DNA of 29,071 bases. It comes from an uncultured Eubacterium sp. (GTDB taxonomy: Bacteria; Bacillota_A; Clostridia; Lachnospirales; Lachnospiraceae). The position numbers were made by a program, and so were the translations under genes. This document shows positions 73-29,071 of this stretch, one piece after another (the stretch's first letter is position 1; each line of letters starts with the position of its first letter). The notes below the pieces were generated by a model, which was given only the letters and a program-made list of their open reading frames with translations, was not told the origin of the DNA and did not search any database. Location of the stretch: contig CAOKJJ010000049.1 in the NCBI GenBank assembly GCA_948468465.1, forward strand, positions 1 to 29,071, in the 5' to 3' direction.

Positions 73-1287
73 TCATTTTCCTTGTTCCAATCTATCATTG
101 AATCCTCCCGCATAGTTCAAAAATTTCCGGTAATTCACGATAACCGTATCCCATGAAAAATGTGTTTTCACATATTCCATCCCCTGACGTCCCATCCTAT
201 CAGCCATTTCCTTCCTGCACGCCAGATACTTTACCGCTCCTTCAAATTCAAAATAATCCGAAAAAAACAATCCTCCGCCGGCTTCTTTCACAAAATTTTT
301 CGTAACCGCACACCGTTCATTTACCAGAACCGGCCTGCCGCACAGCCAGCTTTCCATAACCACAAGGGAAAAACTCTCATTTACGGAAGGCTGACACAAT
401 ACTACTGCAGCCCCGTAAGCATCATATTTGTCCTGTACGGGTACATATCGAAGATCCGTGACTTCTCTTTTTATCGCATCCGGTATTTCGATTGTTCCGC
501 CGCCAATCAGAACCAGTTTCAGCGGAGTTTTATTTCTTTTTTTAAATTCCGCAAAATATCTGAGCAATATGCCGACATTTTTCCCCTCATCCTTTCTTCC
601 CGCATACAGAACAAACTGACCGTTTATCTGATACTTTTCCCGAAACCTCCCAGGACTGTATGTAATATCTGTGTCCACGCCCTCGCCAAGCACCACGGTT
701 TTTACGCGGCTCAGGTCATAGATCCGTTCAGCCAATTCATATTCCGGCCATGAATGAAAAATCATGCCGCCGATTCCCGCAAACAGTTTTTTAAATATGC
801 GCAGGTGAATATAGCTTTCATCATGCAGGCAGGGAATGAGCACCGATTTTTCCGGACAGATACGCATCCCGTAATACGTCGTGCCAAACATATATGGGAT
901 AAAGACAAACACGTCATATTCGTCTGCATGCCTTCTTATATAATCATAAAGCTGCGGGCTGTTCACCATTTCCCTAATATATGTATGCTCTTCTTCCCGT
1001 GTCAGCGGCAGCTGCCCACGCATCAGCTTTAAATTCACGGCATCAAATGCTGCCGTATCTCTTTTCCTTACCCGGAACCGGCGTACTGGAATGCCCTGTT
1101 CCACGCTCCGTCCCGGCGTATGATAATTAAGACTCCAGTCGCTTTGAAATTCCTTCACGCACGTTGTGAGAATTTCCAGCTTCATACCGTCCCGTACCAG
1201 ATGCAGCGCCAGATTCCTGATCTCTGCTTCCGCCCCGCCTGGGATGTTCATTCCAAACCACGGAGTAACAATTGCTGTTTTTTTCAT
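73..1287 (-). CDS. GT4-type glycosyltransferase
   Basis: Predicted cytoplasmic GT-B glycosyltransferase of 404 aa that adds a sugar from a nucleotide-sugar donor to the growing surface polysaccharide; donor and linkage cannot be told. The N-terminal half carries a glycine-rich GGAE at residues 17-20. The C-terminal donor half has an LYAGRKDEGKN strand-loop near residue 230 and the GT4 E-x7-E pair E304/E312 in ESFSLVVMESW. The ATG is preceded by AGGAGACAGG. It starts 9 bp after the stop of the gene at 1297-2466 and is the last gene of the operon in view. It resembles that neighbour along its length (GGAE, FDA-N, HDE, LYAGR-DE-KN, YFEFEG-V-YL), so the two look like tandem duplicates that diverged. 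The family is firm; the substrate is unknown. Confidence 0.88.
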   Translation of the reverse strand: MKKTAIVTPWFGMNIPGGAEAEIRNLALHLVRDGMKLEILTTCVKEFQSDWSLNYHTPGRSVEQGIPVRRFRVRKRDTAAFDAVNLKLMRGQLPLTREEEHTYIREMVNSPQLYDYIRRHADEYDVFVFIPYMFGTTYYGMRICPEKSVLIPCLHDESYIHLRIFKKLFAGIGGMIFHSWPEYELAERIYDLSRVKTVVLGEGVDTDITYSPGRFREKYQINGQFVLYAGRKDEGKNVGILLRYFAEFKKRNKTPLKLVLIGGGTIEIPDAIKREVTDLRYVPVQDKYDAYGAAVVLCQPSVNESFSLVVMESWLCGRPVLVNERCAVTKNFVKEAGGGLFFSDYFEFEGAVKYLACRKEMADRMGRQGMEYVKTHFSWDTVIVNYRKFLNYAGGFNDRLEQGK

Positions 1288-1296
1288 ACCTGTCTC

Positions 1297-2466
1297 CTAT
1301 ATCCGCTCAATCAGGCCACAGAGCCTGTCCATAATTCGATTCCAGTCATATGTTTCCTGCACATAGGCTTTCGCGTTCCTGCATAACTGCCCCGTGATCT
1401 GCGGATGATCCAGTAAATAATTCACCACGCCCTCAAATTCAAAATAGTTCTGATAGTACAGCGCTCCGCCGCTTTTCAGACAGTGCCCCTTTAATACGCT
1501 GCATGTTCCGTTCACCACGACCGGAACGGACAGGCTCATGGCTTCCAGCACGGCAATCGACAGACTTTCATAAACGGAAGGCATGACAAAGATATCCGCT
1601 GCCGCCATTGCGTTCCACTTCTCCTGCTCCTCCACAAATCCCAGACACACAATATCTTTATCCTTCGGAACTGGTATCACGGACTTTCCAAGCAGCACAA
1701 GCCGCAGATCGTTTTTATTCCTTTTTTTATATTCCTGAAAATAACGGAACAGCACATGACAGTTTTTGCTTTCGTCAATCCTCCCGGCATACAGCAGGAA
1801 CCTGCCTGGTCCATGCTTTTTCTTAAATGTGCGCGCATCCGTCGTTTGGGGCGGCGTAATGCCAAATCCCCCGATCTTATACGACGCCTTTAGACCCGGA
1901 AATTTTTTATATACCAGCTCTTTTTCCTCTTCCGTATTAAACAGAAAAAAACGTGGCGTACGAAATACCCGCTCAAACATCCGCATATTTAAAAAAGGCT
2001 CGTCATGCGCTTCCGGAACGAGGATCGCCTTGTTTCCCACTTCCCGGATGCCCATCACAGTCGGATAATACAGATATGTAAAAAAAACAAACGCGTCAAA
2101 TTCATCCTTCCTTTTTCTTATATACCGGATCAGATCCGGTACAACAGGCCCCTGCCTGTAAAGCCATGCATACTCTTCCCGTGGTCTTAAGCCTGACGAT
2201 AAAAATCTGGCATTGATCGCGTCAAAATCCTTCTGGTTTCTTGTATGTTTTACCGAAAAACGGTGCACATGCACACGGCCGGCCATTTCCTCCTTACGGG
2301 GACAAACGTTTTCCCATGTCATATAGTCCACTGCCCGTGTCGTCAGCACATGTACCTCCTGGTATCTTAAGCAGAGCCTTTCTGCCATTTCCAGGCACTG
2401 CAGTTCCGCCCCGCCGTTTACCTCCCTGCCAAAACGCTGTACCACAAGACAGATTTTATTTTTCAT
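1297..2466 (-). CDS. GT4-type glycosyltransferase
   Basis: A 389-aa GT-B glycosyltransferase of the GT4 kind, presumably building the same polysaccharide. The N-terminal Rossmann half has NGGAE near residue 18, HDEPF marks the middle, LYAGRIDESKN opens the donor-binding half, and the E-x7-E motif is E300/E308 in ESLSIAVLEAM. The start codon lies inside the end of the preceding gene (11 bp overlap with 2456-3541), with GGGAG upstream, so translation is probably coupled. It shares diagnostic segments with the downstream gene at 73-1287, which suggests tandem duplication. Sugar specificity cannot be assigned. Confidence 0.88.
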   Translation of the reverse strand: MKNKICLVVQRFGREVNGGAELQCLEMAERLCLRYQEVHVLTTRAVDYMTWENVCPRKEEMAGRVHVHRFSVKHTRNQKDFDAINARFLSSGLRPREEYAWLYRQGPVVPDLIRYIRKRKDEFDAFVFFTYLYYPTVMGIREVGNKAILVPEAHDEPFLNMRMFERVFRTPRFFLFNTEEEKELVYKKFPGLKASYKIGGFGITPPQTTDARTFKKKHGPGRFLLYAGRIDESKNCHVLFRYFQEYKKRNKNDLRLVLLGKSVIPVPKDKDIVCLGFVEEQEKWNAMAAADIFVMPSVYESLSIAVLEAMSLSVPVVVNGTCSVLKGHCLKSGGALYYQNYFEFEGVVNYLLDHPQITGQLCRNAKAYVQETYDWNRIMDRLCGLIERI

Positions 2467-3541
2467 TTTTTTCTCCCAGAAATTCGTTCAAATATTTTAT
2501 AAACCTTCTTTTTGTGCGGCTGCCTGAAAAATGTACCAGCCTTTTGCTCTCCCCCTCCAGCAGCGTCTGACGCACAGAATCATTAGTCAGTATATAGTTC
2601 AGCACGGATGCGTTCACCAGCGGGTCCTTTGTATCCGTTAAAAACCCGCTCCCTCCAAGTGTTTCCGTAACCGCCGTACTGTCATACGCAAGAATCGGAA
2701 GCTTAAAATACATCGCCTCCACAAGCGGCACACAGAATCCCTCATGCTCACTCATACAGACAAACGCATCTGCAATATGATAATAAGCCAAAAGCTCCTC
2801 AAATCGGATATGCCCGGTAAAATGTACGTGTTTCAGATGCAGTTTTTGTACATACTCCTGCAGTCTTTCGTAATAAGCCTCCATCCCGTCATAAGATCCG
2901 GCCAGAAACAGTCTGGATTTTGCGCAGTATCGTTTCTGATACTGGTAAAACATGCGGATAATATCTTCCTGTTTTTTATTCGGGGCAATTCTTCCCGTAA
3001 ACAAAATATTGATATAGCCGTCACCCGCATATCTGCCCATAATCTTTCTGTCCGGCTTTTTTTCATAATCCCGAAACGGTATTAATATCGGCAGCACGTC
3101 GATCCGGCAGGTATATCCGGCCTTTTGCAGCTGTTTTTTGTTAAATTCGGAAACTGCAAGACAGTAGTCCGCACGATCAGAAAGATACGCCATCCCGCGC
3201 AGCCCATCCTTCCCCATTTCGACACCGTGCCTGCTGTAGCCCTCAAAAAACTCCGGCGGGGTAATATTGTGATAAATGATAATTTTTCTTCCCTTATAAT
3301 TTTCCAGTGTGTAATTTAATGCCGTACCCGTTGACAAATGATAAATAATCACATCCTGTTTATGCAGACGGGGCAGCGAATGGAGCTGCCTGACAATTCC
3401 AGGCGGCAGACCCGGACCAATATTTTCCGCGTAAACGCCAGTTCCATATCCAAGACCTGCAATCAGCGCATGCAAAGCAAGCGCATCGTTGCTTACCGCG
3501 TCACCGTAAGAAATCGTGGGAAGCATCTGTATGATCTTCAT
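2456..3541 (-). CDS. GT4-type glycosyltransferase
   Basis: A 361-aa single-domain GT4-type glycosyltransferase. The donor half shows ILFTGRIAPNKKQEDII and the E-x7-E pair E267/E275 within EHEGFCVPLVEAM. The N-terminal half (MKIIQMLPTISYGDAVSNDA, then IIYHNITPPEFF) is of the type seen in enzymes acting on lipid-linked or polymer acceptors in the cytoplasm. The ATG has GGGAG 6 nt upstream. The leader is unusual: four 17-bp tandem repeats lie just upstream, and the last one begins an 11-codon open frame whose TGA overlaps this ATG as ATGA. Followed by an 11-bp overlap into the next glycosyltransferase. Substrate unknown. Confidence 0.88.
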   Translation of the reverse strand: MKIIQMLPTISYGDAVSNDALALHALIAGLGYGTGVYAENIGPGLPPGIVRQLHSLPRLHKQDVIIYHLSTGTALNYTLENYKGRKIIIYHNITPPEFFEGYSRHGVEMGKDGLRGMAYLSDRADYCLAVSEFNKKQLQKAGYTCRIDVLPILIPFRDYEKKPDRKIMGRYAGDGYINILFTGRIAPNKKQEDIIRMFYQYQKRYCAKSRLFLAGSYDGMEAYYERLQEYVQKLHLKHVHFTGHIRFEELLAYYHIADAFVCMSEHEGFCVPLVEAMYFKLPILAYDSTAVTETLGGSGFLTDTKDPLVNASVLNYILTNDSVRQTLLEGESKRLVHFSGSRTKRRFIKYLNEFLGEKNEK

Positions 3542-3988: not shown

Positions 3989-5269
3989 TTATTTTTCCTG
4001 GGAAGGAATATCTATTCTTATTTCTGAAAATCCGACTGCCAGCACTCTCTGATCATCACTTACTCCCAACTGTGCAGGTGAACACGCATCCGGGTATTCA
4101 AATTCCAGTTCCAGTTTCTGATCCTTCACACATCCTTCCTGCAGCATAAAAGAAATTTCCCTGTCCTGTTTCTCATTCAGACATCCGCTGAAAACTTCCT
4201 TTTTACCCCCCCCCATGCAAAAAATACGGATCCGCTGTCTGCCGGAAAATATATGCTTAAATTTTACTGTCACCCGCATGGCATATCTGTTAATCTCCAT
4301 ATCAGAAATCAGAAAACTTGCTTTTGCTTTCTTTCCGCACGACCATGCAAAATCTGTTTCAATACCGGATATGCCGGATACAAAATACCGGATCCCGTTC
4401 CCTTCCTTCGTAAACAAAACAGAAGTGCCCAGCTGATACTGCCGTCCGCATTTTTCCGGCGACCAGTTCGTAACGCGTTTGTGCATTCCCACAATCATAT
4501 CAAACAACTCCAGACAGTCCGAATCATAATACCGTTCGTAACAGGACCTGTATTTTAGCAGATGATCATCTTCCGGCATATACGACCATGTCAGCGAAAG
4601 CGCATGAAAGCAGTCCTGCACATACTTTTTCGTATCCAAACTGATGCAATATGCACCAATATTCGGATATCCGTATTCCCTGTCGGTATCTTTTATAATG
4701 ATCTTATCAGCCGTAACCGTATCCAGCAGCAGCTGGGTGGCAAATGTCTGACTGTCTCCCCATAAATGGCTGGCTGCAATATCATGCAGCACCACACATG
4801 CGCCCGCATGCAAATAAGGAAGCACTGCCAGAAAATCCAGCAGCTCACCGGGAAGGATATGCATCGTATCCAGAATGACAAAATCAATATCTTTTCCGAT
4901 TTTATCCAGATATTCCGGCAGCACATCTCCAAGCAGAAACGTATGATGTATATCCGGTTTTATCCTCTTTTTCACATTTTCAGCAGCAAACCCGGTCTGT
5001 CTGGCAGTATCCCGGTAATAATCTTTGGCCAGATCCACAGAATACATCTCACACATTTGCGTCTGGCCGATCATGTCCAGGCACTGTAGCATAATCGCTG
5101 TCGTACCGCCGCCAGCCACCCCGACTTCCAATATTTTATGCGGTCTTTTCTGTCTGAGCAGTCCGCATAAAAATGCGGACTCAAATTCAGTCATTTCCAC
5201 CCATTCTGCCGCTGCCGTCTGCTCGCAGACAATCGTTCTCGGTTCATAAAACAATTCCAGATTATCCAT
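3989..5269 (-). CDS. SAM-dependent methyltransferase with C-terminal beta domain
   Basis: A 426-aa class I SAM-dependent methyltransferase, probably methylating a sugar of the polysaccharide. The SAM-binding motif is ILEVGVAGGG at residues 46-55, with the acidic SVDLAKDYY at the end of strand 2, FLLGDVLPEYL and then FVILDTMHILPGE, the pattern of the Methyltransf_24 / CmcI-like group. From about residue 290 a second domain follows (GISGIETDFAWSCGKKAKASF to SPAQLGVSDDQRVLAVGF). This resembles the accessory beta-sandwich attached to many polysaccharide glycosyltransferases, where SPxELG-SxDxRxLG-like endings are common. A run of nine G on the coding strand (4206-4214) encodes Gly353-355 inside that second domain. 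AAAAGGAAA precedes the ATG, and it lies 25 bp after the triple glycosyltransferase. Confidence 0.8.
   Translation of the reverse strand: MDNLELFYEPRTIVCEQTAAAEWVEMTEFESAFLCGLLRQKRPHKILEVGVAGGGTTAIMLQCLDMIGQTQMCEMYSVDLAKDYYRDTARQTGFAAENVKKRIKPDIHHTFLLGDVLPEYLDKIGKDIDFVILDTMHILPGELLDFLAVLPYLHAGACVVLHDIAASHLWGDSQTFATQLLLDTVTADKIIIKDTDREYGYPNIGAYCISLDTKKYVQDCFHALSLTWSYMPEDDHLLKYRSCYERYYDSDCLELFDMIVGMHKRVTNWSPEKCGRQYQLGTSVLFTKEGNGIRYFVSGISGIETDFAWSCGKKAKASFLISDMEINRYAMRVTVKFKHIFSGRQRIRIFCMGGGKKEVFSGCLNEKQDREISFMLQEGCVKDQKLELEFEYPDACSPAQLGVSDDQRVLAVGFSEIRIDIPSQEK
4206..4214. repeat. Nine-base G tract within the methyltransferase gene
   Basis: Nine consecutive C on the plus strand (nine G in the mRNA) inside codons for Met-Gly-Gly-Gly in the C-terminal domain. 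Slippage would change the frame after about residue 353, removing most of the beta domain while leaving the SAM domain intact. It could also be a sequencing-sensitive site. Confidence 0.85.
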
Positions 5270-8200: not shown

Positions 8201-9239
8201 GCTCTCCCGCCAGCTCCTGGCATATTTTCTCGGCCGCTTCCTTTTCGTTCCCGCATAAAAAAAACGGATGTGCCGCAACTTCCGGATGTGCCCCCAGATC
8301 ATATACATACATATGCTGATACAAATACTGCATCTCGGCAAGCGGCAGATCAAATCCTTCCCAGAGTGTCGGTGAAAATCCGACATCCACACATTCCATC
8401 ACTGTCTTCAAAGTAAGATCGTCAATATGCCCCATACAGTAATAGCAGTCTTCCACATCCTGAGGAATCACTTCCATGTCCTGTCTTTCCGACAGAACCA
8501 GCATTTTTATGCGGAATCCGTTCTTTTTCAAAATCCGCGCGATCTGAAATCCTGCTGCCGAATTCTTGTAGTTTCCTGTTTCCCACCGTCCTGGCTGAAG
8601 GATAAGCCGGTATCCTTGCTCCTTTAGCTTTTTAATTTCCGTAAGAACATCCCTGCTGCGGATACCAGACTCTTCCTGCTGCCAGACTGCCATATCCATG
8701 TGGTCCGCTCCCAGATGCACATAAGAAGTCGGTATCGTATGATCCGTATCCGGTCTGCTCTGGGAAGATTCTATAAAACTGCTGATCGCAATGACACGGT
8801 CTGCCATTCTCAGATTTTCCTTCCGCAGCCTCCGTAGTTCCTTCTGGGTAATCATCTGCGGCTCGCTCATTCCATCCATTGGAACAGCGCCATAATCATG
8901 AAATACCGCATATCCGCATTTTTCACGCAGAAATGCGATGCAGCGGTAAAACGGCCATCCGGCAATAAACGCAATGTCTGGTTTATCCTCCGCGGTAAAC
9001 CATCTGTTCCAGTGTTTTTCCAGATATTCCAACGTAAAATCATTCCCATGCAGATAATCCGCGGCCTCCGGTATCCGTATCACCCTGTCGGAATACCGCT
9101 TCGCCGCCTGTTCATCCATCCTGTTGCCCATCATAATAATTTCATGCCCGGCCTTCCTCCAGTAAGAGCCAAGCAGCAGCAATACCCGGTCAACGCCAAA
9201 ACGGAATAAAAACCGTTCGTTACATATCAGTATTTTCAT
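5295..9239 (-). CDS. Giant triple-domain GT4 glycosyltransferase
   Basis: About 1314 aa with three consecutive GT-B/GT4 units in one chain. Unit 1 (about 1-380) begins MKILICNERFLFRFGVDRVL and has E294/E302 in WEGFDLPLAEM. Unit 2 (about 388-790) begins VLFIDVTNACHDTANSGVMRV and has E687/E695 in EGYGMPVMESL. Unit 3 (about 805-1210) begins IIVCSNFYPPGFIGGAEI and has E1120/E1128 in ENQPVSITEAM. A C-terminal segment of about 95 aa (from FVSIKGSILPASIAEV) is not recognised. Three intact active sites suggest it adds several sugars of the repeat unit in sequence. I chose the ATG at 9239, where family homology begins; ATGs at 9251 (AAAGGG upstream) and 9287 are in frame. It overlaps the preceding methyltransferase by 20 bp. 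Confidence 0.87.
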   Translation of the reverse strand: MKILICNERFLFRFGVDRVLLLLGSYWRKAGHEIIMMGNRMDEQAAKRYSDRVIRIPEAADYLHGNDFTLEYLEKHWNRWFTAEDKPDIAFIAGWPFYRCIAFLREKCGYAVFHDYGAVPMDGMSEPQMITQKELRRLRKENLRMADRVIAISSFIESSQSRPDTDHTIPTSYVHLGADHMDMAVWQQEESGIRSRDVLTEIKKLKEQGYRLILQPGRWETGNYKNSAAGFQIARILKKNGFRIKMLVLSERQDMEVIPQDVEDCYYCMGHIDDLTLKTVMECVDVGFSPTLWEGFDLPLAEMQYLYQHMYVYDLGAHPEVAAHPFFLCGNEKEAAEKICQELAGELPVEETELHQSLENFHQKFSWKKCAHTILRQMQKDMVLSGVLFIDVTNACHDTANSGVMRVTRKIARQMQKKMETVFVIWDEGMHKYVFPYEKETDLLCAYGGADKKYIRYRSVEGEPRTCMDEALCRFDGRSKFLLLTETVEHDRMHCIINYAHRFHILISAVFHDAIPVLRPDLCSGTIHQNHVKYMMELAFCDMVFPTAGHNESDLRKYWKEQGIRGTFVKTVELAGEMDDAARNRTKITQRADKCRILFVSTLEPRKNHKRFLRAFTELMDEQVRLKKSVSLTMVGNRYAGNTEIPAFVEDVCSRYANIEWLGVVDDAKLRRLYRECAFTVYPSEIEGYGMPVMESLWFGKPCLCSNSGSLGGLGAAGGCCLTDILDVEQIKGSLLRMITDEAYVVGLQNEAVKRKIITWDAYADGMIEGLGEITGRDARWENTYFSHSLIRQIEKYIKEKNAEDRIIVCSNFYPPGFIGGAEIIAHGQSRIIANDEKVFLIVFSMDLSETYCDGYCHAGMYDGVLIVRFCVSGSHMNPSGISFFHREMNEAFRQLCGLVNPTVVHGHNMTGMSLGMLETAKDFGAAVCMTLHDHWGFCLKNTILDNDHKLCDHFWQCNACMPVLNAGDIHIPVNIRQGYFRKVFEKVDTFLSPSRYLADAYIRGGFSWHRMRQLWNGIDTKKYANMRKKQSEKFRIAFVGHFGEHKGIELLIRAAARLKRKNIEIELAGDGEEYDNYRHLAVELGVLSQIRFWGKLNNSDMIRVFAETDVYCLPSVWPENQPVSITEAMACGIPVIASDLGGNRELVRHGINGFLFRPGDDQDLAEKIRTLMDDESLQKSFGDAGKKMIRRYDISNQASELLNIYRSIEKQTIHSKPFVSIKGSILPASIAEVTDERILLLDWIVLPQDYAVMKACVVLEGERPDREQMKQLKDYKVRMIVPEAETGIWNEMGFCAQGYESRIHLLKILSEFV

Positions 9240-10245
9240 CTGTTTCACCATTTTCCCTTTTGTAAGCCGCCACGGCATAATCCGCACAGCTGTTAAAATA
9301 TCCTGCCATCTGTTCGATCAGGTCGTAATTTGCCCCGTTTTTATCTGCCTTTGACAAATCTATGCCAGGATACGGACGCATACGGATAATTTCCGTTTCC
9401 GCGAGTCCCGCATCCTCCACAAGTACCTGCAGCAGCTTCGGCGGAATCTTTTGTATATGCATGGGATCAAAATAGAAATTGCATGCTCCCACAATCAGAT
9501 TTTCCGGATTCGGCGTTTCCAATATCAGCACGCCTCCCGGCCGAAGTACCCGGTATGCTTCTTTTAATACATCCATCAGAATATTTTTAGGAAGATGCTC
9601 CACAACCTGAAATGCCGTCAGAATATCCACCGAATCGCTGGTCTGGTTTTTCAGATGCGTAAGCAGGTCATTTTTTACGACATCCAGCCTGCGTTTTTTA
9701 CAGTACTGTATCATACTCTCATTTTTATCAACTCCAATCGCGGCAATCCCCTGTTCCTGCATCAGTTCCAGCCATTCTCCCCTTCCGCATCCAAGATCCA
9801 TGGCAAAAAGCCGGCACCCGTTCGTCTCCTTTACTTTCTGAACCACATCTTCATAAATTTTCAGACGGCTTTTTATTTCCTGTCTCGTGCCGCGCATATG
9901 GTCTTCAAATTTTTTATAAGCCGCACCTGTCCGAATTTCTTTTGCACGGCGGTTTTTTATCCTTTCCGCCTCCAGTTCCTCCTGAAGCTTTTCCCTGAAA
10001 GCGGTTATCATATCAATCGTTTTCCGGTACTCATTCAGGCATCGTACCACAGACGCGTTAAATTCTGTCTGGTGATCCAGCAGCGGCCTGCAAAATACCC
10101 GCACCGCCTTACATGCCGCACGCCTGATCAGCACGATCAGCCTGCCAATGCGGCGCCTGTTGCTGACCAGTGCATATCCGGTATCGGTTTTCCAGAATAT
10201 GTTGGCTTTTCTTAAATTTTCATCCAGTTCGTTTCTGTTTATCAT
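9220..10245 (-). CDS. SAM-dependent methyltransferase with N-terminal coiled coil
   Basis: A 341-aa class I methyltransferase. Residues 30-60 are a basic amphipathic segment (RRRIGRLIVLIRRAACKAVR) that may touch the membrane. It is followed by QTEFNASVVRCL and a charged coiled coil to about residue 140. The SAM site is DLGCGRGEW at 150-158, with GVDKNE (strand 2), DILTAFQVVEHLP (motif with His) and VLRPGGVLILETPNPEN. The same layout is common in O-antigen and capsule loci. A methyltransferase next to a Wzt that carries a carbohydrate-binding domain suggests a chain-terminating or chain-decorating role, by analogy with E. coli O8/O9a WbdD; that role is inference. AAGGGG precedes the ATG. A 13-bp-arm hairpin lies between wzt and this gene. 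Confidence 0.82.
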   Translation of the reverse strand: MINRNELDENLRKANIFWKTDTGYALVSNRRRIGRLIVLIRRAACKAVRVFCRPLLDHQTEFNASVVRCLNEYRKTIDMITAFREKLQEELEAERIKNRRAKEIRTGAAYKKFEDHMRGTRQEIKSRLKIYEDVVQKVKETNGCRLFAMDLGCGRGEWLELMQEQGIAAIGVDKNESMIQYCKKRRLDVVKNDLLTHLKNQTSDSVDILTAFQVVEHLPKNILMDVLKEAYRVLRPGGVLILETPNPENLIVGACNFYFDPMHIQKIPPKLLQVLVEDAGLAETEIIRMRPYPGIDLSKADKNGANYDLIEQMAGYFNSCADYAVAAYKRENGETDENTDM

Positions 10246-10274: not shown

Positions 10275-10306
10275 CATAAAAGAATTCGCATATGAATTCT
10301 TTTATG
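10275..10306. repeat. Perfect 13-bp-arm hairpin over the wzt stop codon
   Basis: CATAAAAGAATTC at 10275-10287 and GAATTCTTTTATG at 10294-10306 are exact inverted copies around a 6-nt loop. The hairpin covers the wzt stop (10302-10304) and is not followed by a U tract on the transcribed strand. It is more likely an RNA processing or stability element than a terminator. A third GAATTC copy follows at 10307. Confidence 0.75.
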
Positions 10307-11684
10307 AATTCTTATACGAGTCATCAGCCGTCTTCCATGCATGCCCGATCCGGCAGATTCCTGTTTCTGTATACGGACTTGTCATCTCAAATGACGCCGC
10401 GTCGTACAAATAGTGGAATGCCGTTCCGTCCTCGGCATGCAGTGCAATGTCCATCTTATAATTTCCCTGCAGCAGCATAACAGCCGGAAACTCAACTTCC
10501 ACCGTACCCTGTTTTTGCAGCCTGATATTCTGCACCTTATCAATCAGCGTGTTTGTCCCGTAGCAGTCCGTACCGTCCGACTTAAAAATATGAAAACCAA
10601 ATACGCTTTCTTTTATCTTCTCATTCCTGCATTCGTATTCTGCCCTTAAAATCATTGCGGAGCCAGTCGTATATACCTTGGCCTTCCTGCGTGCTTCATC
10701 CAGCAACTCGCACCTTACAATCCGCACATCCACTCCGCCCACTTCCCTTAACGGCTCCTGTACGCGCTTTTCCTGCCCGGTTTCCTCTTCTTTTTTTTCC
10801 TTTTCTTCTTTTTTCTTTTCCTGTATCTCTTCCTTATTCTGTACAGTCACTGCCTCCTGCTCCACCCGGTTCCTGCGTTTCTGGCTCATATAATCCATAT
10901 AAACCGGATGTACTTCCCTGGGTTTTCCTTCTTTTCGGATTACGCCGTTGTCAATCCATACCGAGCGGTCACAGATCTGTTCGATCTGAGCCAGGGAATG
11001 AGACACAATCACAATCGTCATGCCGTCCCGCTTCATCTCGCGCAGCTTCTCAAAACACTTCGCCTGAAAATTCGCGTCCCCGACTGCCAGTATCTCATCA
11101 ATCAGCAGAATATCCGCCCTTACGTTAATGGCCACCGCAAATGCCAGCCGCATATACATCCCTGAGGAATAGGTCCGCACCGGATTGTCAATAAACTCCT
11201 CCAGTTCCGAAAATGTAATAATCTCTCCAACCCGCGCATCAATTTCCCTTTTCGTCAGTCCGAATATCGAAGCGTTGATATAGATATTTTCCCGGCCGCT
11301 CATATCCGGATGAAAACCGGCTCCAAGCTCGATCAGGCTGGACACTCGTCCGTTCATTACAATCGTTCCGCTGTCCGGATACATGATTTTAGTTAACAGT
11401 TTTAAAATCGTGCTCTTGCCGCATCCGTTGTGTCCGATCAGACCGACTGCCTCTCCTTTTTTCACCGTAAAACTGATGCCGCCCAGAACCGTACGTTCTT
11501 CATAGGAACGTCTTTTTCGAAAAAGCGTCTTTTCTTTTAGCGTATGCCCCTTGTCATAATATACCCTGAATTTTTTTGTCACATTTCTTACTTCTATTGC
11601 AATTTCTTTTGCAGTTTCTTTTGTAATTCCTTTTTCTTTCGCAGTTTCTATTTCAACTTCTATTGCGTATTCCGGCTTCATCAT
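10302..11684 (-). CDS. wzt: Polysaccharide ABC exporter ATPase, Wzt-like
   Basis: A 460-aa ATPase that energises export of the finished polysaccharide through Wzm. The nucleotide-binding domain (about 28-255) has Walker A GHNGCGKST at 84-92, signature YSSGM at 172-176, Walker B ILLIDE at 192-197 and the H-loop SHS around 229. A highly charged linker (about 280-310, mostly Glu/Lys) leads to a C-terminal beta domain of about 140 aa (AMILRAEYECRNEKIKES to FEMTSPYTETG) of the Wzt C-terminal carbohydrate-binding type. In E. coli O8/O9a this domain recognises the modified chain end. The start ATGATGA overlaps the wzm stop by 4 bp, indicating coupling. Oddity: about 28 extra N-terminal residues are made of repeated AIEV and ETAKE words. 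Confidence 0.9.
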   Translation of the reverse strand: MMKPEYAIEVEIETAKEKGITKETAKEIAIEVRNVTKKFRVYYDKGHTLKEKTLFRKRRSYEERTVLGGISFTVKKGEAVGLIGHNGCGKSTILKLLTKIMYPDSGTIVMNGRVSSLIELGAGFHPDMSGRENIYINASIFGLTKREIDARVGEIITFSELEEFIDNPVRTYSSGMYMRLAFAVAINVRADILLIDEILAVGDANFQAKCFEKLREMKRDGMTIVIVSHSLAQIEQICDRSVWIDNGVIRKEGKPREVHPVYMDYMSQKRRNRVEQEAVTVQNKEEIQEKKKEEKEKKEEETGQEKRVQEPLREVGGVDVRIVRCELLDEARRKAKVYTTGSAMILRAEYECRNEKIKESVFGFHIFKSDGTDCYGTNTLIDKVQNIRLQKQGTVEVEFPAVMLLQGNYKMDIALHAEDGTAFHYLYDAASFEMTSPYTETGICRIGHAWKTADDSYKNS

Positions 11685-12460
11685 AATTCCTCAACAAACC
11701 GCTTCTGCAGACGGTCAAACAGGATCCATCCGGCCAGGAGCATTACCATTCCGACAATTGTCGCGGACAGCAATGTCTCAAGCTGCGGCATTCTTCCATA
11801 ATATAATATATCCCTGTACGATACGATCACATACGTCATCGGGTTCGCCATAAATATCCAGTGCACCTGTTCCGGCACCTGTTCCATCGGATAGAGGACC
11901 GGCGTCAGAAACTGCCATGCCATCGTGACAATCCCAAGAATGTATTCCAGATCCCGCACATACACCGTAACGGCGCTCATCACCATCGTAAATCCCAGCG
12001 CCAGTATATATTCAACCGCCATAATTAACGGCAGGCACAATACCCCTGTCAGCCGCAGTGAATGACCCGTGCACGCCAGTACGGCAAAGATCACAAGAAA
12101 ACTAAGCAGCATATTGACAAACTGGCTCGTGACAAAGGATACCGGCAGCACCTCGCGCGGGAAATAGATTTTCTTTACCATATCCTGCTGTGCCAGAATA
12201 CAGTTTGCACCGCCTGAGAGCGAAGTACTGAAAAAAATCCACGGAATCAGCGCCACGAACAAAAACAGATAATAGTCTTCTATTCCCGAACGCATAATTG
12301 TCGAAAATACAAGCGTGTACACACAAAGCTGCAGCAGCGGATTTAAAAATGTCCAGAAAAATCCCAGGACAGAACCTTTGTATCTTCCTTTTAAGTCTCT
12401 TTTTACAAGTGAAACGATCATTTCACGATAAGCATAGATCTCTTTTATTCTTTCCAGCAT
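11681..12460 (-). CDS. wzm: Polysaccharide ABC exporter permease, Wzm-like
   Basis: A 259-aa ABC-2 type membrane protein that forms the export channel for the polysaccharide. The N-terminus is cytoplasmic and carries the family signature LVKRDLKGRYKGSVLGFFWTFLNPLL. About six hydrophobic segments follow, and QQDMVKKIYFPREVLPVSFV is the conserved coupling-helix region. Length is typical of Wzm/TagG (about 260 aa). AGGAGATT precedes the ATG. The stop overlaps the start of wzt (ATGA), so the two subunits are co-translated. It lies 21 bp after the two-domain glycosyltransferase. TagG (teichoic acid) is the alternative family name; the surrounding methyltransferases and multi-domain GT4 enzymes favour a polysaccharide. 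Confidence 0.92.
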   Translation of the reverse strand: MLERIKEIYAYREMIVSLVKRDLKGRYKGSVLGFFWTFLNPLLQLCVYTLVFSTIMRSGIEDYYLFLFVALIPWIFFSTSLSGGANCILAQQDMVKKIYFPREVLPVSFVTSQFVNMLLSFLVIFAVLACTGHSLRLTGVLCLPLIMAVEYILALGFTMVMSAVTVYVRDLEYILGIVTMAWQFLTPVLYPMEQVPEQVHWIFMANPMTYVIVSYRDILYYGRMPQLETLLSATIVGMVMLLAGWILFDRLQKRFVEEL

Positions 12461-12481: not shown

Positions 12482-14764
12482 TCATTGATCATAGAGCCGG
12501 CAGATCTCCACCAGCTTCCTCGCAGATTTTTCCCATGTAAATTCTCCGGCTCTTTGTATTCCAAGCCTTTCCAGGCGCTTTCTAAAAGCCTCGTCATAAA
12601 GGACCTTTCTCATCGCCTGACAGATTTCTTCTTCGCTTGCAGGATTTACTGTAACGGCTGCCCCTGCAGCCACTTCACGCAGCGAAGTCGTTTTCGAGGT
12701 AATCACCGCTGTACCGCAGGCCATTGCTTCCAATGGCGGCATTCCAAATCCTTCATACAAGGACGGAAACACAAATGCTTCTGCACCGCACATCAGCAAC
12801 GGACTGTCTTTTGGCTGTATATAACCGGTAAACAAAACCCGTCCTTCTTCCTCCAGTTTTCGCGCTTTTTCATAAATCCCACTGCACTTCCATCCTTTTT
12901 TTCCAGCAAGTACAAGCTGCGGTGTCTGATTTCGGCTGCGGCACAGCAACTCATAAGCGCCAATCAGCCTTTCCAGATTTTTGCGCGGTTCGATGGTACC
13001 CAAATACAGCATATATTCCTGTTGAATACCATATTTGTCCAGCGCTTTTTGTATCTGCCTCTTTGTATAATCCGGATGATACACGTTATGATCGACCGCA
13101 CAGGGCACGATGTGGATATGCTCTGGCGGCACTTTCAGATATTTCATAATCTCCGACTTGCTGAATTCGGATATCGTAATGATCCCATCTGCACGCCTGC
13201 AGGTCTGTTTCATATTTTTCTGCAGCCATATGCGGGTTTTTCTGCTCAGCGTCTGCGGACAAGCCCGATACGACATGTCATACACAAACGCTATCCGTTT
13301 TCCCCTGACTCCGGGCGGTATCACATAGTTGAAAAAAATGGTTAGGTCTGCCTTCGTGCGGAAAAACAGACGATGCGGTATCGGAACAACTGTCCACAAC
13401 AATTTATACATCGTATAACCAAGCCTTTTGCAGCATTCGATGACACATCCCGCTTTGCGGTATTCCTCCAGACGGTACATCTGTCCGGCCGCCTTTCTCC
13501 CTTTGAAACACTGCAGCGTGTATGCGTTTTCAGGGTATTTCAGCAGTTCCAAAAGCAGATGATGCGCATTCCATGCAATTCCTGTCTTATCTCCGCCCAA
13601 AAACAGCTGCCCGTCAAATGCGATCTTACGTTCCGGCTCCTGCGTTTTATCATTTAGCAGCTGTTGGAACGCTTTTTTATGCCTGTCCGCCATTGCCTTC
13701 ATGGTGTATCGCTCCCGTACCCGTCTTGCTGCGTTGTCTCCATAAGTCTTTCGCAGCTTCTCATTGTCCACCAGCTTCTGCATGGCCGCTGCCAGCTGAC
13801 GGACGCTTCCCGGCTTTACCGTCAGCCCCGTTACTCCGTCGATACTGACCGACGGTACGCCGCTTGGAAGCGCCGTATTAATCACCGGCTTTCCAAAAGC
13901 CATGGCTTCCAGCTGAACGACTGCAAACGCTTCCGCTTTGGATATGGACGGCAATACTAAAAAATCACATGCTTTCAGCCAGTCCACTTTTTCTTCCTCG
14001 GATATTCTTCCGGTAAATGTCACATTGCAAAGGTTCCCTGCCGCTGCCTGCCTCTTTAATTCTTCCTCCAGCGGACCGCCTCCGACCATTACCAGCCGGC
14101 AGTTTTGATGGTCCATTGCCCCAAATGCCCGCAGTAAAATATCACAGCCTTTATACCAAACGAGCCTGCCGACAAACAGGATGATGATCTGCTCTTTTTT
14201 TTCAGACGGCCGCATCATATGTTCCGTCCCTTTTTGCAAATATGCATCGCTGACGCAAAAAGGGATCACCCGGCATTTCTTTTGATATTCCAGGAGCAGT
14301 CTGGAATTTTTCAGATTTTCTTTGGATGATACGAATATCCTGTCCGCCTTTTTCAGCGTATGGCGCACCAGCGGCCCATACAGCAGCGCCAGCTTTTTAT
14401 TTTGTTCAAATCCGCAATGCCACCAGACGACCAGTCTGCCTTTGTACATTCCAAACAATATCGCCAGATCTGCCATCGGATAGGGAAAATGATAAACGAC
14501 AACATCCGAATCTTTTGTCCGCTTTTTCACCTCAAACAAAAACTGTGGGGAAACAGGCGTGGATGCGATCTCAAACAGCTGTCTGCACCGATGTACCGGT
14601 ATTCCTTTGTAGCTGTCATCTGCGCTTTTTTTGCGGCGCCGGTCCTGGCAGACAATGATTTCCTGCCTGCTTCCGGCAAAGGCATCTGCAATATTTTCCA
14701 TAATCCTGGCAATCCCACCGCCATTGTCCGGCCAGTATATTTTAAATAATTGTGTGATCTTCAT
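12482..14764 (-). CDS. Double-domain GT4 glycosyltransferase
   Basis: A 760-aa protein with two complete GT4 units. Unit 1 (about 1-375) begins MKITQLFKIYWPDNGGGIARIM, has ILFVGRLVWYKGCDILL and the E-x7-E pair E278/E286 in EAFAVVQLEAM. Unit 2 (from about 380) begins KIAFDGQLFLGGDKTGIAWNA, has MLYLGTIEPRKNLERL and E671/E679 in EGFGMPPLEAM. The second unit resembles the D-mannosyl/rhamnosyl-type GT4 of polymerising enzymes, and the same kind of N-terminus occurs in unit 2 of the giant enzyme at 5295-9239. It probably makes two successive linkages in the cytoplasm. AAAGGAAAATT precedes the ATG. It starts 29 bp after the XRE gene, so it is in the same transcript. Confidence 0.88.
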   Translation of the reverse strand: MKITQLFKIYWPDNGGGIARIMENIADAFAGSRQEIIVCQDRRRKKSADDSYKGIPVHRCRQLFEIASTPVSPQFLFEVKKRTKDSDVVVYHFPYPMADLAILFGMYKGRLVVWWHCGFEQNKKLALLYGPLVRHTLKKADRIFVSSKENLKNSRLLLEYQKKCRVIPFCVSDAYLQKGTEHMMRPSEKKEQIIILFVGRLVWYKGCDILLRAFGAMDHQNCRLVMVGGGPLEEELKRQAAAGNLCNVTFTGRISEEEKVDWLKACDFLVLPSISKAEAFAVVQLEAMAFGKPVINTALPSGVPSVSIDGVTGLTVKPGSVRQLAAAMQKLVDNEKLRKTYGDNAARRVRERYTMKAMADRHKKAFQQLLNDKTQEPERKIAFDGQLFLGGDKTGIAWNAHHLLLELLKYPENAYTLQCFKGRKAAGQMYRLEEYRKAGCVIECCKRLGYTMYKLLWTVVPIPHRLFFRTKADLTIFFNYVIPPGVRGKRIAFVYDMSYRACPQTLSRKTRIWLQKNMKQTCRRADGIITISEFSKSEIMKYLKVPPEHIHIVPCAVDHNVYHPDYTKRQIQKALDKYGIQQEYMLYLGTIEPRKNLERLIGAYELLCRSRNQTPQLVLAGKKGWKCSGIYEKARKLEEEGRVLFTGYIQPKDSPLLMCGAEAFVFPSLYEGFGMPPLEAMACGTAVITSKTTSLREVAAGAAVTVNPASEEEICQAMRKVLYDEAFRKRLERLGIQRAGEFTWEKSARKLVEICRLYDQ

Positions 14765-14793
14765 AATTTTCCTTTGATACAGCCAGGCTTTGG

Positions 14794-15138
14794 TTAGCAG
14801 CTGTCCTTGCTTTTCATAATATCAGCTACAGACTTCATAATCCGGATGTACATCTCATAGCTTCCATCGTCTTTCTGATCCGGCTGTCCCCACATTCCCT
14901 GCATCGCTGTTTCTGAAAGGTGCGTAACTCCCCAAAGCAACGCATCCGCATCTGTTTCAAGCTCCCGACAGAGTATGGCAAACGTGTCCATGCTCATTTT
15001 TCTCGTTCCACGCTCAATGTGTCCCATAAAATTCAGGCTGATCCCGCATTTTTTTGCAAGCGCATCCTGCGACAATCCCTTTGCCTTTCTGATCTGTCGG
15101 ATTCTTGTTCCCATTTTTGCGTAATCTAATTCCTGCAT
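14794..15138 (-). CDS. XRE-family helix-turn-helix regulator
   Basis: About 114 aa. The N-terminal HTH_3 domain runs MGTRIRQIRKAKGLSQDALAKK, then CGISLNFMGHIERGTRKMSMDTFAILCREL, the classic Cro/C1 pattern with helix 3 around SLNFMGHIERG. The C-terminal 40 residues are not recognised. Start: the ATG at 15138 has a strong AGGAAGGAAGG upstream; the in-frame ATG at 15159 and TTG at 15171 have none. It is the first gene of the polysaccharide operon, 29 bp before the first glycosyltransferase, so it probably controls that operon and itself. A TCTCnGATCnGAGA near-palindrome lies between the -35 and -10 of the putative promoter and is a candidate operator. Confidence 0.88.
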   Translation of the reverse strand: MQELDYAKMGTRIRQIRKAKGLSQDALAKKCGISLNFMGHIERGTRKMSMDTFAILCRELETDADALLWGVTHLSETAMQGMWGQPDQKDDGSYEMYIRIMKSVADIMKSKDSC

Positions 15139-15222
15139 CCCGACCTTCCTTCCTGGCATCCTGTTTTCCAAAAGCAGCTTTTTTGTAACAATTCAGATAA
15201 CCCTTGAACTGTTGCGCTTTTT

Positions 15223-15251
15223 TAACTATCTCTGATCTGAGAACCGTGCAA
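15223..15251 (-). promoter_or_regulatory. Candidate promoter of the polysaccharide operon
   Basis: On the minus strand TTGCAC (15246-15251), 17 nt, TAGTTA (15223-15228). The -10 is poor, so a regulator or another promoter may be needed. It lies about 85 bp before the XRE start codon. Confidence 0.4.
15229..15242. promoter_or_regulatory. Candidate XRE operator
   Basis: TCTCTGATCTGAGA is an inverted repeat (TCTC-n-GATC-n-GAGA) with two mismatched positions. It fills most of the spacer between the putative -35 and -10 of the promoter before the XRE gene, the usual place for a Cro/C1-type autoregulatory operator. Confidence 0.4.
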
Positions 15252-15252
15252 A

Positions 15253-15317
15253 ACAGATTACAGTTTTAATGCATAACTTTTTCTAATAAATTGTTATGCA
15301 TTAAAATTGTAATCTGT
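15253..15317. repeat. Long hairpin with 25-bp arms
   Basis: Arms 15253-15277 and 15293-15317 are inverted copies with a single mismatch (G-U in RNA), around a 15-nt loop. On the minus strand the stem is followed by CTGTTTTGC, so it might stop read-through into the polysaccharide operon. It also contains the left copy of the 27-bp site described separately. Confidence 0.85.
15272..15298 (-). repeat. Left copy of a 27-bp inverted site
   Basis: Read on the minus strand this copy starts CATAACAATTTATTAGA and ends GTTATG. It matches 24 of 27 bases of the site at 15585-15611, which lies in the opposite orientation. Each copy has outer CATAAC / GTTAT half-sites, the layout of a site-specific recombinase site. 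Confidence 0.65.
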
Positions 15318-15504
15318 ATTCTGCATGTCTTAGGAAATAAGGGCTGCGGGTATTTTGACTCCGATTTGTTTTAAAATACCTGCAAGCTCCTTCATTCTGG
15401 CAAAAATATCCTATTGAATGGTTCCTTTTTTGTATATATTGCATATTTTATGAAAACAAATAGATTTAAAAATTGTATATTAAACACAAAATTTATGAAT
15501 AGAC

Positions 15505-15533
15505 TTGCAAATTCCATGAAAAGCGAATAGAAT
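15505..15533 (+). promoter_or_regulatory. Promoter inside the inverted-repeat segment, facing right
   Basis: TTGCAA (15505-15510), exactly 17 nt, TAGAAT (15528-15533). As drawn it reads away from the polysaccharide operon. If the segment between the two inverted sites flipped, it would read into the XRE gene and the operon. Confidence 0.5.
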
Positions 15534-15584
15534 ACTTGTAGGCAATATTTTAGTCGTTAAATAGTACTATTAGAACAGCTTTTA

Positions 15585-15611
15585 CATAACAATTTATTAG
15601 AGAATGTTATC
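15585..15611 (+). repeat. Right copy of a 27-bp inverted site
   Basis: Starts CATAACAATTTATTAGA and ends GTTATC. It is the inverted partner of 15272-15298, with 17 identical bases in a row and 24 of 27 overall. The similarity stops at the ends of the site, so it is not part of a longer duplication. Confidence 0.65.
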
Positions 15612-15619
15612 TGACTTTT

Positions 15620-15772
15620 TCATTTGCAGATCTTTGCTATGTCTCCAATAGGAACTTTTATATCCATCTTTACACTCTCAGTCACATACGCTATAATAAT
15701 TGCAACAAATACTAAGGAACTGTAAGCAAATAATATGACAAACTTACTTGTCTTTTTCTCCGATAGCACCAC
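15620..15772 (-). pseudogene. Small membrane-protein gene, probably missing its true start
   Basis: A 50-codon frame from GTG 15772 to TGA 15620. The product has one hydrophobic segment (FVILFAYSSLVFVAIIIAYV) followed by a natural-looking tail, TESVKMDIKVPIGDIAKICK. A stop lies directly upstream of the GTG pair, there is no ribosome binding site, and the 5' half lies inside the 159-bp palindrome. It is therefore either a gene whose 5' end was lost in the rearrangement or an unusual small gene. Family not recognised. Confidence 0.35.
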
Positions 15773-15873
15773 TCAAAAATCAGTTACATAGCCCGCTATG
15801 CGCCTGATTTTTGAGCGGCACTCTCGAAGAAAAATCCTGCGCAAGTTTATCATATTATTTACTTACAGTTCCT
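15715..15873. repeat. 159-bp imperfect palindrome, MITE-like or inverted duplication
   Basis: The ends are inverted copies: AGGAACTGTAAGCAAATAAT at the left, and AGGAACTGTAAGTAAATAAT on the minus strand at the right. Pairing continues inward through the GATAAACTT-like segment and again at CTCAAAAATCAG / CTGATTTTTGAG near the centre. No transposase and no clear target-site duplication are seen. It could be a miniature inverted-repeat element or an inverted duplication of the 5' part of the small membrane-protein gene, because both arms can be read as SEKK-SKFVILF-YSS-like peptides. Confidence 0.7.
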
Positions 15874-15903
15874 AACTGCATCCATCCTAAAGGCGGTGAG
15901 AAT

Positions 15904-16086
15904 ATGGCGGTAATGGAAATGTCTGATAAAGAATTAATTACAACAACGATTGACAGATATACTGATCTACAGCAAATAAAAAAAGCTAATGGCGGTCACG
16001 AAAATGAAATGCTTGATTATCTTATCAAAGTAACTGCCGCCAAATTATCATCTTTGGGGGTAAACGTAGAAGACATAACGCTTTAA
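15904..16086 (+). CDS. Small protein of unknown function (60 aa)
   Basis: 60 aa from ATG 15904, with AAAGGCGGTGAG three bases before it; this clear ribosome binding site decides the start over longer frames that would begin inside the palindrome. The protein is acidic and soluble-looking, probably helical: SDKELITTTIDRYTDLQQIKKANGG, then EMLDYLIKVTAAKLSSLGVNVEDITL. No domain is recognised. It is the only intact plus-strand gene in the middle of the window, is followed by large hairpins, and sits in an accessory-looking AT-rich island. Its ribosome binding site shares eleven bases with that of the 50-aa gene at 16226-16378 on the other strand. Confidence 0.65.
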   Translation: MAVMEMSDKELITTTIDRYTDLQQIKKANGGHENEMLDYLIKVTAAKLSSLGVNVEDITL

Positions 16087-16106
16087 CCAGTAGCCCTATA
16101 ACTCAT

Positions 16107-16162
16107 GAAACAAAAAGTGTAAAGCCCATGGAATTGCCCATATGCCTGACACTTTTTGTTTC
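16107..16162. terminator. Bidirectional hairpin terminator
   Basis: GAAACAAAAAGTGT (16107-16120) and ACACTTTTTGTTTC (16149-16162) are perfect 14-bp inverted arms with A/T runs inside the stem. It lies 21 bp after the stop of the 60-aa gene and probably ends its transcript. Confidence 0.65.
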
Positions 16163-16172
16163 GTAAGGTTAA

Positions 16173-16215
16173 AAAGATGCAAAGCCCTGAACATTTCATA
16201 AGGCTTTGCATCTTT
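16173..16215 (-). terminator. Intrinsic terminator after the 50-aa gene
   Basis: AAAGATGCAAAGCC (16173-16186) and GGCTTTGCATCTTT (16202-16215) form a perfect 14-bp stem. On the minus strand it is followed by TTAACC after a T5 run, the form of a rho-independent terminator, 11 bp after the stop at 16226. Confidence 0.75.
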
Positions 16216-16225
16216 GGGTTAATGA

Positions 16226-16378
16226 TCAGTCATCTTCAATCATTGACTGAAAAATATCTTTTAATGCCTGCAGGTTTTTATTGTCTGGTGATTCTTCTAA
16301 TGCCTTTTCCAGCCATCCTAAAGCAAGTCGGATAAATCCCTGAAATTGTTTATTTGTCATCCCCATATCCTGTACCAT
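16226..16378 (-). CDS. Small protein of unknown function (50 aa)
   Basis: 50 aa, beginning MVQDMGMTNKQFQGFIRLAL and continuing as an amphipathic acidic helix (GWLEKALEESPDNKNLQALKDIF). The ATG at 16378 has AAAGGCGGTGAAAGG directly upstream, and a near-consensus promoter (TTTACA, 17 nt, TATAAT) lies 50 bp further up, so the longer frame reaching 16651 is not used. It has its own promoter and terminator, so it is an independent unit rather than the tail of the symporter operon. Function unknown. Proteins with an MTNKQF-type start are, as far as I recall, common uncharacterised genes in gut Firmicutes. Confidence 0.72.
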   Translation of the reverse strand: MVQDMGMTNKQFQGFIRLALGWLEKALEESPDNKNLQALKDIFQSMIEDD

Positions 16379-16426
16379 CCTTTCACCGCCTTTTATTATT
16401 GAAACAGTTGTTAGTTTGTTACAATC

Positions 16427-16455
16427 ATTATAGTGGATGATGTAAAAGGTGTAAA
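16427..16455 (-). promoter_or_regulatory. Strong promoter of the 50-aa gene
   Basis: Minus strand TTTACA (16450-16455), 17-nt spacer, TATAAT (16427-16432), close to sigma-A consensus. It starts 3 bp beyond the symporter stop codon. The predicted leader is about 40 nt. Confidence 0.72.
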
Positions 16456-16458
16456 GCC

Positions 16459-28692: not shown

Positions 28693-28715
28693 AATCAGGG
28701 GGTTTATGATAATAT
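28687..28715 (+). promoter_or_regulatory. Candidate promoter of the Rpn-type gene
   Basis: TTGTAA (28687-28692), 17 nt, TAATAT (28710-28715); an overlapping GATAAT at 28708 would give a 15-nt spacer. Either places the transcript start after ATG 28714, favouring TTG 28753 as start codon. Confidence 0.35.
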
Positions 28716-28752
28716 GGAGATACGAAAACAGAAGGGAAAGCAGGTGGGAAGA

Positions 28753-29071
28753 TTGACAGTGACGGAACAAATAGACCAGAAACATCAGGAAGATTTGCAG
28801 AGGCTAAGAGGTTTTCGCCTGCTTGATGATGATTTCCTCACAAAGTGTTTTGAGGGAGATACGGCAAGCATAGAACTGGTATTGCAGATTGTACTGGAAA
28901 AGCCGGATTTAAAGGTGCTGGACGTCCGCACTCAGGTATTTGTGGAGAACCTGCTGAACCGTTCGGTGAGGCTGGATATCCTGGCTACGGACAGCACAGG
29001 GGCAAAACTGAATGTGGAAGTACAGCGCTCCGACAAAGGAGCCGGGAGAAAAAGAGCCAGGTACAACAGCA
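28753..29071 (+). CDS. Rpn-family PD-(D/E)XK nuclease/transposase, 5' part
   Basis: The first 106 codons of a gene cut by the window edge. The sequence (RLRGFRLLDDDFLTKCFEGD, IELVLQIVLEKPDLKVLDVRTQ, then NRSVRLDILATDSTGAKLNVEVQRSDKGAGRKRARYNS) is the typical N-terminus of the Rpn / PD-(D/E)XK nuclease family 'putative transposase' proteins of gut Clostridia. The active-site Asp lies in RLDIL and the E-x-Q in NVEVQ. E. coli Rpn proteins are DNA nucleases that promote RecA-independent recombination. The TTG at 28753 has AGGTGGGAAGA just upstream; an in-frame ATG at 28714 probably lies before the transcript start. Whether the gene is complete cannot be seen. Confidence 0.8.
   Translation, partial: MTVTEQIDQKHQEDLQRLRGFRLLDDDFLTKCFEGDTASIELVLQIVLEKPDLKVLDVRTQVFVENLLNRSVRLDILATDSTGAKLNVEVQRSDKGAGRKRARYNS

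Follow-up and report, generated by a model that had tools for sequence, protein, structure and literature searches.

At positions 15272-15611 of the window (the whole stretch of 29,071 nucleotides that was analysed), we describe a segment that is very probably a phase-variation switch inverted by a tyrosine recombinase acting in trans. Two sites in opposite orientation enclose a predicted promoter upstream of a gene for an XRE-family regulator and a polysaccharide operon (Table 1), and in related genomes such segments occur in both orientations. A promoter switch before a polysaccharide operon had been proposed in a preliminary description of this DNA; the copies of the cassette in relatives, a spacer rule that governs the sites and the two orientations all argue for that proposal. 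As read, the window appears to be in the OFF state that was also proposed, judged by the direction of the promoter, away from the XRE gene and operon. Invertible promoters ahead of polysaccharide operons are a known kind of switch; tyrosine-type spacers that are specific to each locus, an XRE gene in first position and, at some loci, a hairpin confined to the OFF state would set this variant apart.

Table 1. Features of the predicted switch and of the operon behind it (positions in the window).
Feature	Position	Strand	Remarks
Three more glycosyltransferases	73..3541 (73-1287, 1297-2466, 2456-3541)	-	Glycos_transf_1 each; operon end undefined
Methyltransferase-domain protein	3989..5269	-	Methyltransf_24
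Large glycosyltransferase, 1330 aa	5295..9287	-	Glycos_transf_1, two stretches
Methyltransferase	9220..10245	-	Methyltransf_23/11
Wzt-like ATPase with Wzt_C domain	10302..11684	-	ABC_tran and Wzt_C
Wzm-like ABC-2 polysaccharide export permease	11681..12460	-	ABC2_membrane; weak Wzm/RfbD model match below cut-off
Double GT4-type glycosyltransferase	12482..14764	-	Glycos_transf_1, two stretches
XRE-family HTH regulator, first operon gene	14794..15138	-	HTH_31/HTH_3; start from conservation
Palindrome around proximal site	15250..15320	-	33-nt arms, 88% complementary; predicted OFF-only hairpin in transcript toward XRE
XRE-proximal recombination site (predicted)	15272..15298	+	Spacer CTAATA at 15283-15288
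Invertible segment (predicted), 286 bp between sites	15299..15584	.	OFF orientation as read; inversion inferred from relatives
Promoter TTGCAA-17-TAGAAT (predicted)	15505..15533	+	Faces away from operon; fixed distance in 41/41 pairs
Distal recombination site (predicted), inverted	15585..15611	-	Spacer at 15595-15600

The 27-bp site pair reported earlier was re-found in all its particulars, i.e., the opposite orientation, the 24 of 27 identical bases and the identical run of 17 bases. These inverted repeats flank the segment and are the only two copies in the window when up to three mismatches are allowed in a pattern search (100 shuffled sequences averaged 0.00). A Pfam scan of 22 window ORFs revealed no recombinase, and Rfam gave no match in 14500-16500. 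Likewise, a plasmid search with 14700-16200 returned no match, and viral contigs contained neither an XRE relative nor a site with the window spacer.

The promoter had been called a good one. It is present and faces away from the operon as stated, but its match to the consensus does not rise above chance (6 promoter-like matches versus 5.5 expected). What makes it credible is conservation rather than the consensus match: the motif TTGCAAA-N17/18-TAGAATA is enclosed, with at most one substitution, by all 41 tabulated site pairs (the window included; two loci, on contigs 42 and 47 of G003, are counted twice). The distance from promoter to segment end is 32-33 bp in 24 pairs and 75-76 bp in the 17 others, among which is the window. 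In each of the 41, the predicted promoter lies inside the segment and would be aimed at the operon in one of the two orientations.

To place the cassette among relatives, we compared the window with Eubacterium plexicaudatum ASF492 (G004), a member of the Altered Schaedler Flora, a defined community of the mouse, and with its genus, including three MAGs (G001-G003). Searching the genome contigs with the XRE protein identified 39 loci, 14 of them close (E 1e-36 or better; L001-L014) and confined to ASF492 and the three MAGs. All 14 have at least one site upstream of the XRE gene; L011 has a single imperfect site despite a contig that runs on, and five other close loci are cut by a contig end. 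The pattern ATAAC-N11-AATTGTTAT matched 14, 9, 21 and 8 times in G001, G002, G003 and G004, respectively (one ASF492 site being counted on both strands), compared to 0, 0, 0 and 1 times for a reversed control. Strict site matches are found in 9 of the 13 genomes of the genus. Across 299 genomes of the family, an exact site pair (strict arms, strict spacing) was detected only in ASF492; given how strict the pattern is and that the reversed control also matched one genome (G021), the family-level search indicates just that exact pairs are rare. An XRE paralogue adjoins 38 of the 41 pairs, with none within 1 kb for L172, L190 and one of the two pairs in L186. The window spacer occurs at a site in 1 of 204 loci searched (L167). 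Among the matches listed for the open-licence literature, no paper deals with such switches in E. plexicaudatum; the tables of Jiang et al. from 2019 reportedly may contain the locus.

Tyrosine recombinases are known to act on partner sites with a matching spacer of 6-8 bp, and serine invertases use a 2-bp overlap. Across the 41 pairs, not a single within-pair mismatch falls in positions 10-16 of the 25-mer, compared to 56 in the arms, and between unrelated loci positions 11-16 differ in 38-72% of comparisons. Since these pairs had already passed a filter on overall identity, the test was repeated with partners chosen on the arm positions alone. The same 6-mer was then shared by 38 of 40 pairs, whereas 2000 re-pairings averaged 1.7 and never exceeded 7. 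Of the two exceptions, one (in G007) matches a partner 620 bp off, beyond the search range; for the other (G010 contig 11), inspection by eye revealed a partner with GCAAC/GTTGC arms and the same spacer, CTAATA. No partner was in range for 15 of the 71 strict sites: two belong to a 938-bp locus of ASF492, and each of the remaining 13 has a contig end no more than 340 bp away. Thus each site has a pair of arms around a spacer of 6-8 bp that is the same in both partners, and this identity within pairs, together with the differences between loci, is as would be expected for a tyrosine recombinase. Given locus-own spacers, a site would recombine with its partner only. The distal site of L167 (8200-8232; arms GCAAC/GTTGC) resembles an intrinsic terminator, as its flanks read AAAA.../...TTTT.

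Both orientations occur in relatives. For the 38 pairs with an adjacent XRE gene, the promoter is directed toward it (ON) in 7 and away from it (OFF) in 31; L164 has two promoter-like matches and was called from the nearer one. The ON copies come from G001, G003 (two), G004 (two), G006 and G009, and are absent among the six pairs in G002, the two in G010 and the two in G005. As most loci are OFF, the system is possibly a mostly silent one. Two loci of G003 are present in both orientations within the assembly, on contig 42 (351 of 351 positions identical) and contig 47 (336 of 337). These cases, like the contig breaks described below, are indirect evidence, to which a misassembly or a genuine duplication may have contributed; even a genuine duplication would need an inversion, because the copies stand in opposite orientation. 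A single orientation in all relatives, or the loss of one site, had been named beforehand as what would speak against a switch, and the relatives instead show both orientations. In addition, the strict sites of draft genomes cluster at contig ends, with 5 of 62 falling within 10 bp (0.05 expected) and 16 within 350 bp (1.66 expected); G001 accounts for 11 of these 16. Contigs 31 and 69 of G001 share an exact 55-nt overlap and diverge at the first base that distinguishes the proximal from the distal site; contigs 46/59 and 6/68 start at a shared site or up to 30 nt before it. Such breaks match what an assembler does on meeting a segment end that is joined to two different flanks, and repeats between loci may contribute.

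The palindrome around the proximal site, absent from the preliminary description, has a predicted RNA folding energy of -34 kcal/mol (z -9.35; none of 200 shuffles as good). One of its arms lies within the segment, so that inversion would break the window hairpin: 21 of 24 flanking positions are complementary in the OFF state versus 8 after in silico inversion. We assessed 35 non-duplicate loci against a control in which flanks were swapped between loci. A rank of 0.05 or better was reached at 11 loci in the OFF state, at 2 in the ON arrangement and at 3 for the distal site, and with a median OFF rank of 0.44 most loci are without the hairpin. A universal OFF hairpin was rejected on this count of 11 in 35. 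A tally in which 33 of 37 loci are more stable in the OFF state includes duplicates and is confounded by composition, and we do not rely on it. No terminator-like site was detected in 14700-16300 and no T run follows the hairpin, which therefore does not have the form of an intrinsic terminator; it may act as a block to read-through. A precedent for termination specific to the OFF state is the flagellar switch of Clostridioides difficile, for which the excerpted account describes premature termination by Rho.

Downstream of the switch, the XRE gene more likely starts at the ATG at 15138 than at the TTG at 15171 of the listed ORF (14794-15171), because M12 of that ORF is conserved in 96% of 45 copies and is preceded by AGGAAGG. 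In the HTH region of the same copies, S45, F48, G50, I52-G55 and R57 are at least 96% conserved and H51 82%, and positions 46, 47 and 49 are variable (consensus residue in 51-64%). XRE paralogues that share DNA targets and cross-talk between loci are plausible. Out of 144 references to downstream ORFs, duplicates included, we scanned 46 first and 90 second or third ORFs, excluding two third ORFs of more than 1000 aa. Glycos_transf_1 was found in 32 of the 46 ORFs, each of 150 aa or more, that come first after the XRE gene; matches among the 90 second and third ORFs were to Glycos_transf_1 (26), ABC2_membrane (20), Glycos_transf_2 (16) and ABC_tran (10). By their domain content, the operons behind these switches are, as a class, surface-polysaccharide operons.

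Several groups of compact tyrosine recombinases (191-aa core) are encoded in G001-G004. One clade occurs in 7 of the 13 genomes of the genus (G001-G004, G006, G009 and G010), which are exactly those with at least three strict sites. Put by site content, the clade is carried by 7 of the 9 genomes that have one or more strict sites, by 7 of 7 with at least three and by 0 of 4 without. We refer to it as clade A/B, since the alignment places the recombinases of G009 and G010 near group B; their assignment to group A was discarded on the basis of that likeness. Clade members are at least 68% identical to the query, and the next matches are at most 49% identical. Among the family genomes, 6 of 299 contain a match at E <= 1e-60, with 49-56% identity outside G004. 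In 19 of 23 matches, no change is seen at R40, K70, K73, H139, R142, H165 or Y174, and we take the conserved R, K, H-x-x-R, H and Y of the clade to be the catalytic residues. With these and a length of about 200 aa, the proteins have the make-up of FimB/FimE/RecV-like enzymes, RecV itself lying outside the comparison; both tyrosine DNA invertase models matched them weakly, far below the cut-off. The surroundings of the clade A/B genes examined, out to a few kb, contained no ATAAC-type pair. Because the clade co-occurs with the sites and has no site pair nearby, it is, judged by co-occurrence only, the best candidate for a recombinase acting in trans. Two other recombinase genes lie inside inverted repeats of their own (ATGCAACAGTTTG.../GCAACACAATTT...), namely in L108 (5509-6248; G002, group D) and L178 (104-968; G010, a relative). 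These repeats have GCAACA/GCAACA-like arms, unlike the switch sites, as if the recombinase gene itself were inverting. L100, the other group D gene, has no flanking repeats at the same threshold. In L102 (3241-6290), copies of about 165 nt in opposite orientation flank a group E recombinase gene.

It is unlikely, in our estimate, that the sites are inverted by an enzyme outside clade A/B, such as one of the compact tyrosine groups C-E, a larger integrase or a serine invertase. Candidates abound, with 16-69 PF00589 matches per genome, and two genomes bear sites without a clade A/B match (G005 with two strict sites and G007 with one, both drafts of uncertain completeness). However, clade A/B alone is present in all seven genomes with at least three strict sites, and in G009 it is the sole match at E <= 1e-20. 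The group D gene of L108 and its relative in L178 have different flanking repeats, and a matching spacer of at least 6 bp better suits a tyrosine enzyme than a serine invertase. Very improbable is a static arrangement without recombination, in which the sites would be paired regulator-binding sites or a bidirectional terminator around the promoter. The strong palindrome that holds the proximal site would suit it, and repeats can cause assembly breaks. A common binding protein nevertheless leaves unexplained a spacer that is identical within pairs and variable between loci; the same segment stands in both orientations in G003, and the terminator scan of 14700-16300 was empty. There is a slim chance that the system is active in the relatives and that the window copy is locked OFF. 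The three mismatches in 27 between the window sites point that way, but they spare the spacer, and pairs elsewhere often differ in their arms, including the one on contig 47, where both orientations occur.

Under the preferred reading, inversion by a trans-supplied tyrosine recombinase, the enzyme would bind the ATAAC.../...GTTAT arms, and strand exchange inside the 6-7 bp spacer (CTAATA) would invert the segment. In the OFF state the promoter would face away from the XRE gene, and the long proximal hairpin may hinder read-through. Inversion would turn the promoter toward the XRE gene and the polysaccharide operon, with about 212 nt from the -10 element to the XRE ATG, and the same step would destroy the proximal hairpin. 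Genomes of the genus contain several to many loci of this design, each with its own spacer. A broader model is tentative and somewhat doubtful. In it, many promoters per genome (up to 21 strict matches in one) would be switched by a single compact clade by means of private 6-bp spacers, with a hairpin lock at about a third of the loci; the XRE proteins, switched along with their operons and largely conserved in the helix that reads DNA, would exert cross-locus control that keeps few operons ON.

Phase-variable capsules are best known in Bacteroides. In Bacteroides fragilis, many polysaccharide loci (PSA-PSH) lie behind invertible promoters under a master recombinase in trans, Mpi (excerpt of PMC5903667), and the likeness would lie in many polysaccharide loci that each have an invertible promoter and in one recombinase, a candidate only in the present case, serving them in trans. 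The first gene there encodes an UpxY-type antiterminator versus an XRE regulator here (excerpt of PMC11892184). Mpi is a serine recombinase, whereas both the spacer rule and the candidate enzyme here are of the tyrosine type, and B. fragilis belongs to a different phylum. RecV of C. difficile, also a member of the Clostridia, is described as a tyrosine recombinase that serves several loci (cwpV, flagellar and others) in trans. According to the same account, its inverted repeats are mostly unrelated between loci, whereas here the arms are shared and the spacer alone varies; unlike in the RecV switches, polysaccharide operons are the targets here, and it is the promoter that would invert. The fim switch of Escherichia coli is a single locus with adjacent recombinase genes. 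Its promoter segment of 296 bp (excerpt of PMC5903667) and compact tyrosine recombinases (FimB/FimE) recall the present segments of about 300 bp, although here there are many loci and no site pair lies beside the clade A/B genes examined. Inverton group 139 of hCom2 (33 invertons, 32 from Clostridia; excerpt of PMC11892184) is alike in its Clostridia origin and its tyrosine-type recombinase group, a likeness of description rather than of site motif; its recombinase is linked by proximity (at most 5 kb), and no such proximity was found here. Finally, cps1 of the gut commensal Akkermansia muciniphila is a phase-variable capsule locus governed by invertible elements (excerpt of PMC13343947), alike as an invertible capsule locus, enzyme and sites apart, and from a different phylum.

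If gut commensals of the Clostridia have a comparable system with many loci, surface switching would reach a further type of cell envelope and a further recombinase class. Locus-specific spacers would be a simple rule by which one enzyme could serve many switches without chromosome rearrangement, and the OFF-only hairpin suggests that one inversion may both supply the promoter and lift a block.

Several other elements were noted. A MITE-like element at 15715-15873 has 31-nt terminal inverted repeats (94%) and a 40-nt inner palindrome; the relatives' loci contain no full-length copy, only 30-nt matches in L102 and L141, and the copies of about 165 nt in L102 are related to it over about 30 nt. 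A 30-nt inverted repeat (80%) at 16102-16167, after a small ORF, is possibly a terminator, though the terminator scan lists none there. An ORF running off the window (28714-29070) has a weak match to the PDDEXK_2 transposase family, below the cut-off. In ASF492, the segment of L181 (7897-8859; ON) carries an insertion that encodes an IS200-like transposase (PF01797, E 4e-25) and brings its length to 938 bp, and at L180 (8887-9209; ON) the XRE gene matches as two pieces in different frames and thus looks frameshifted.
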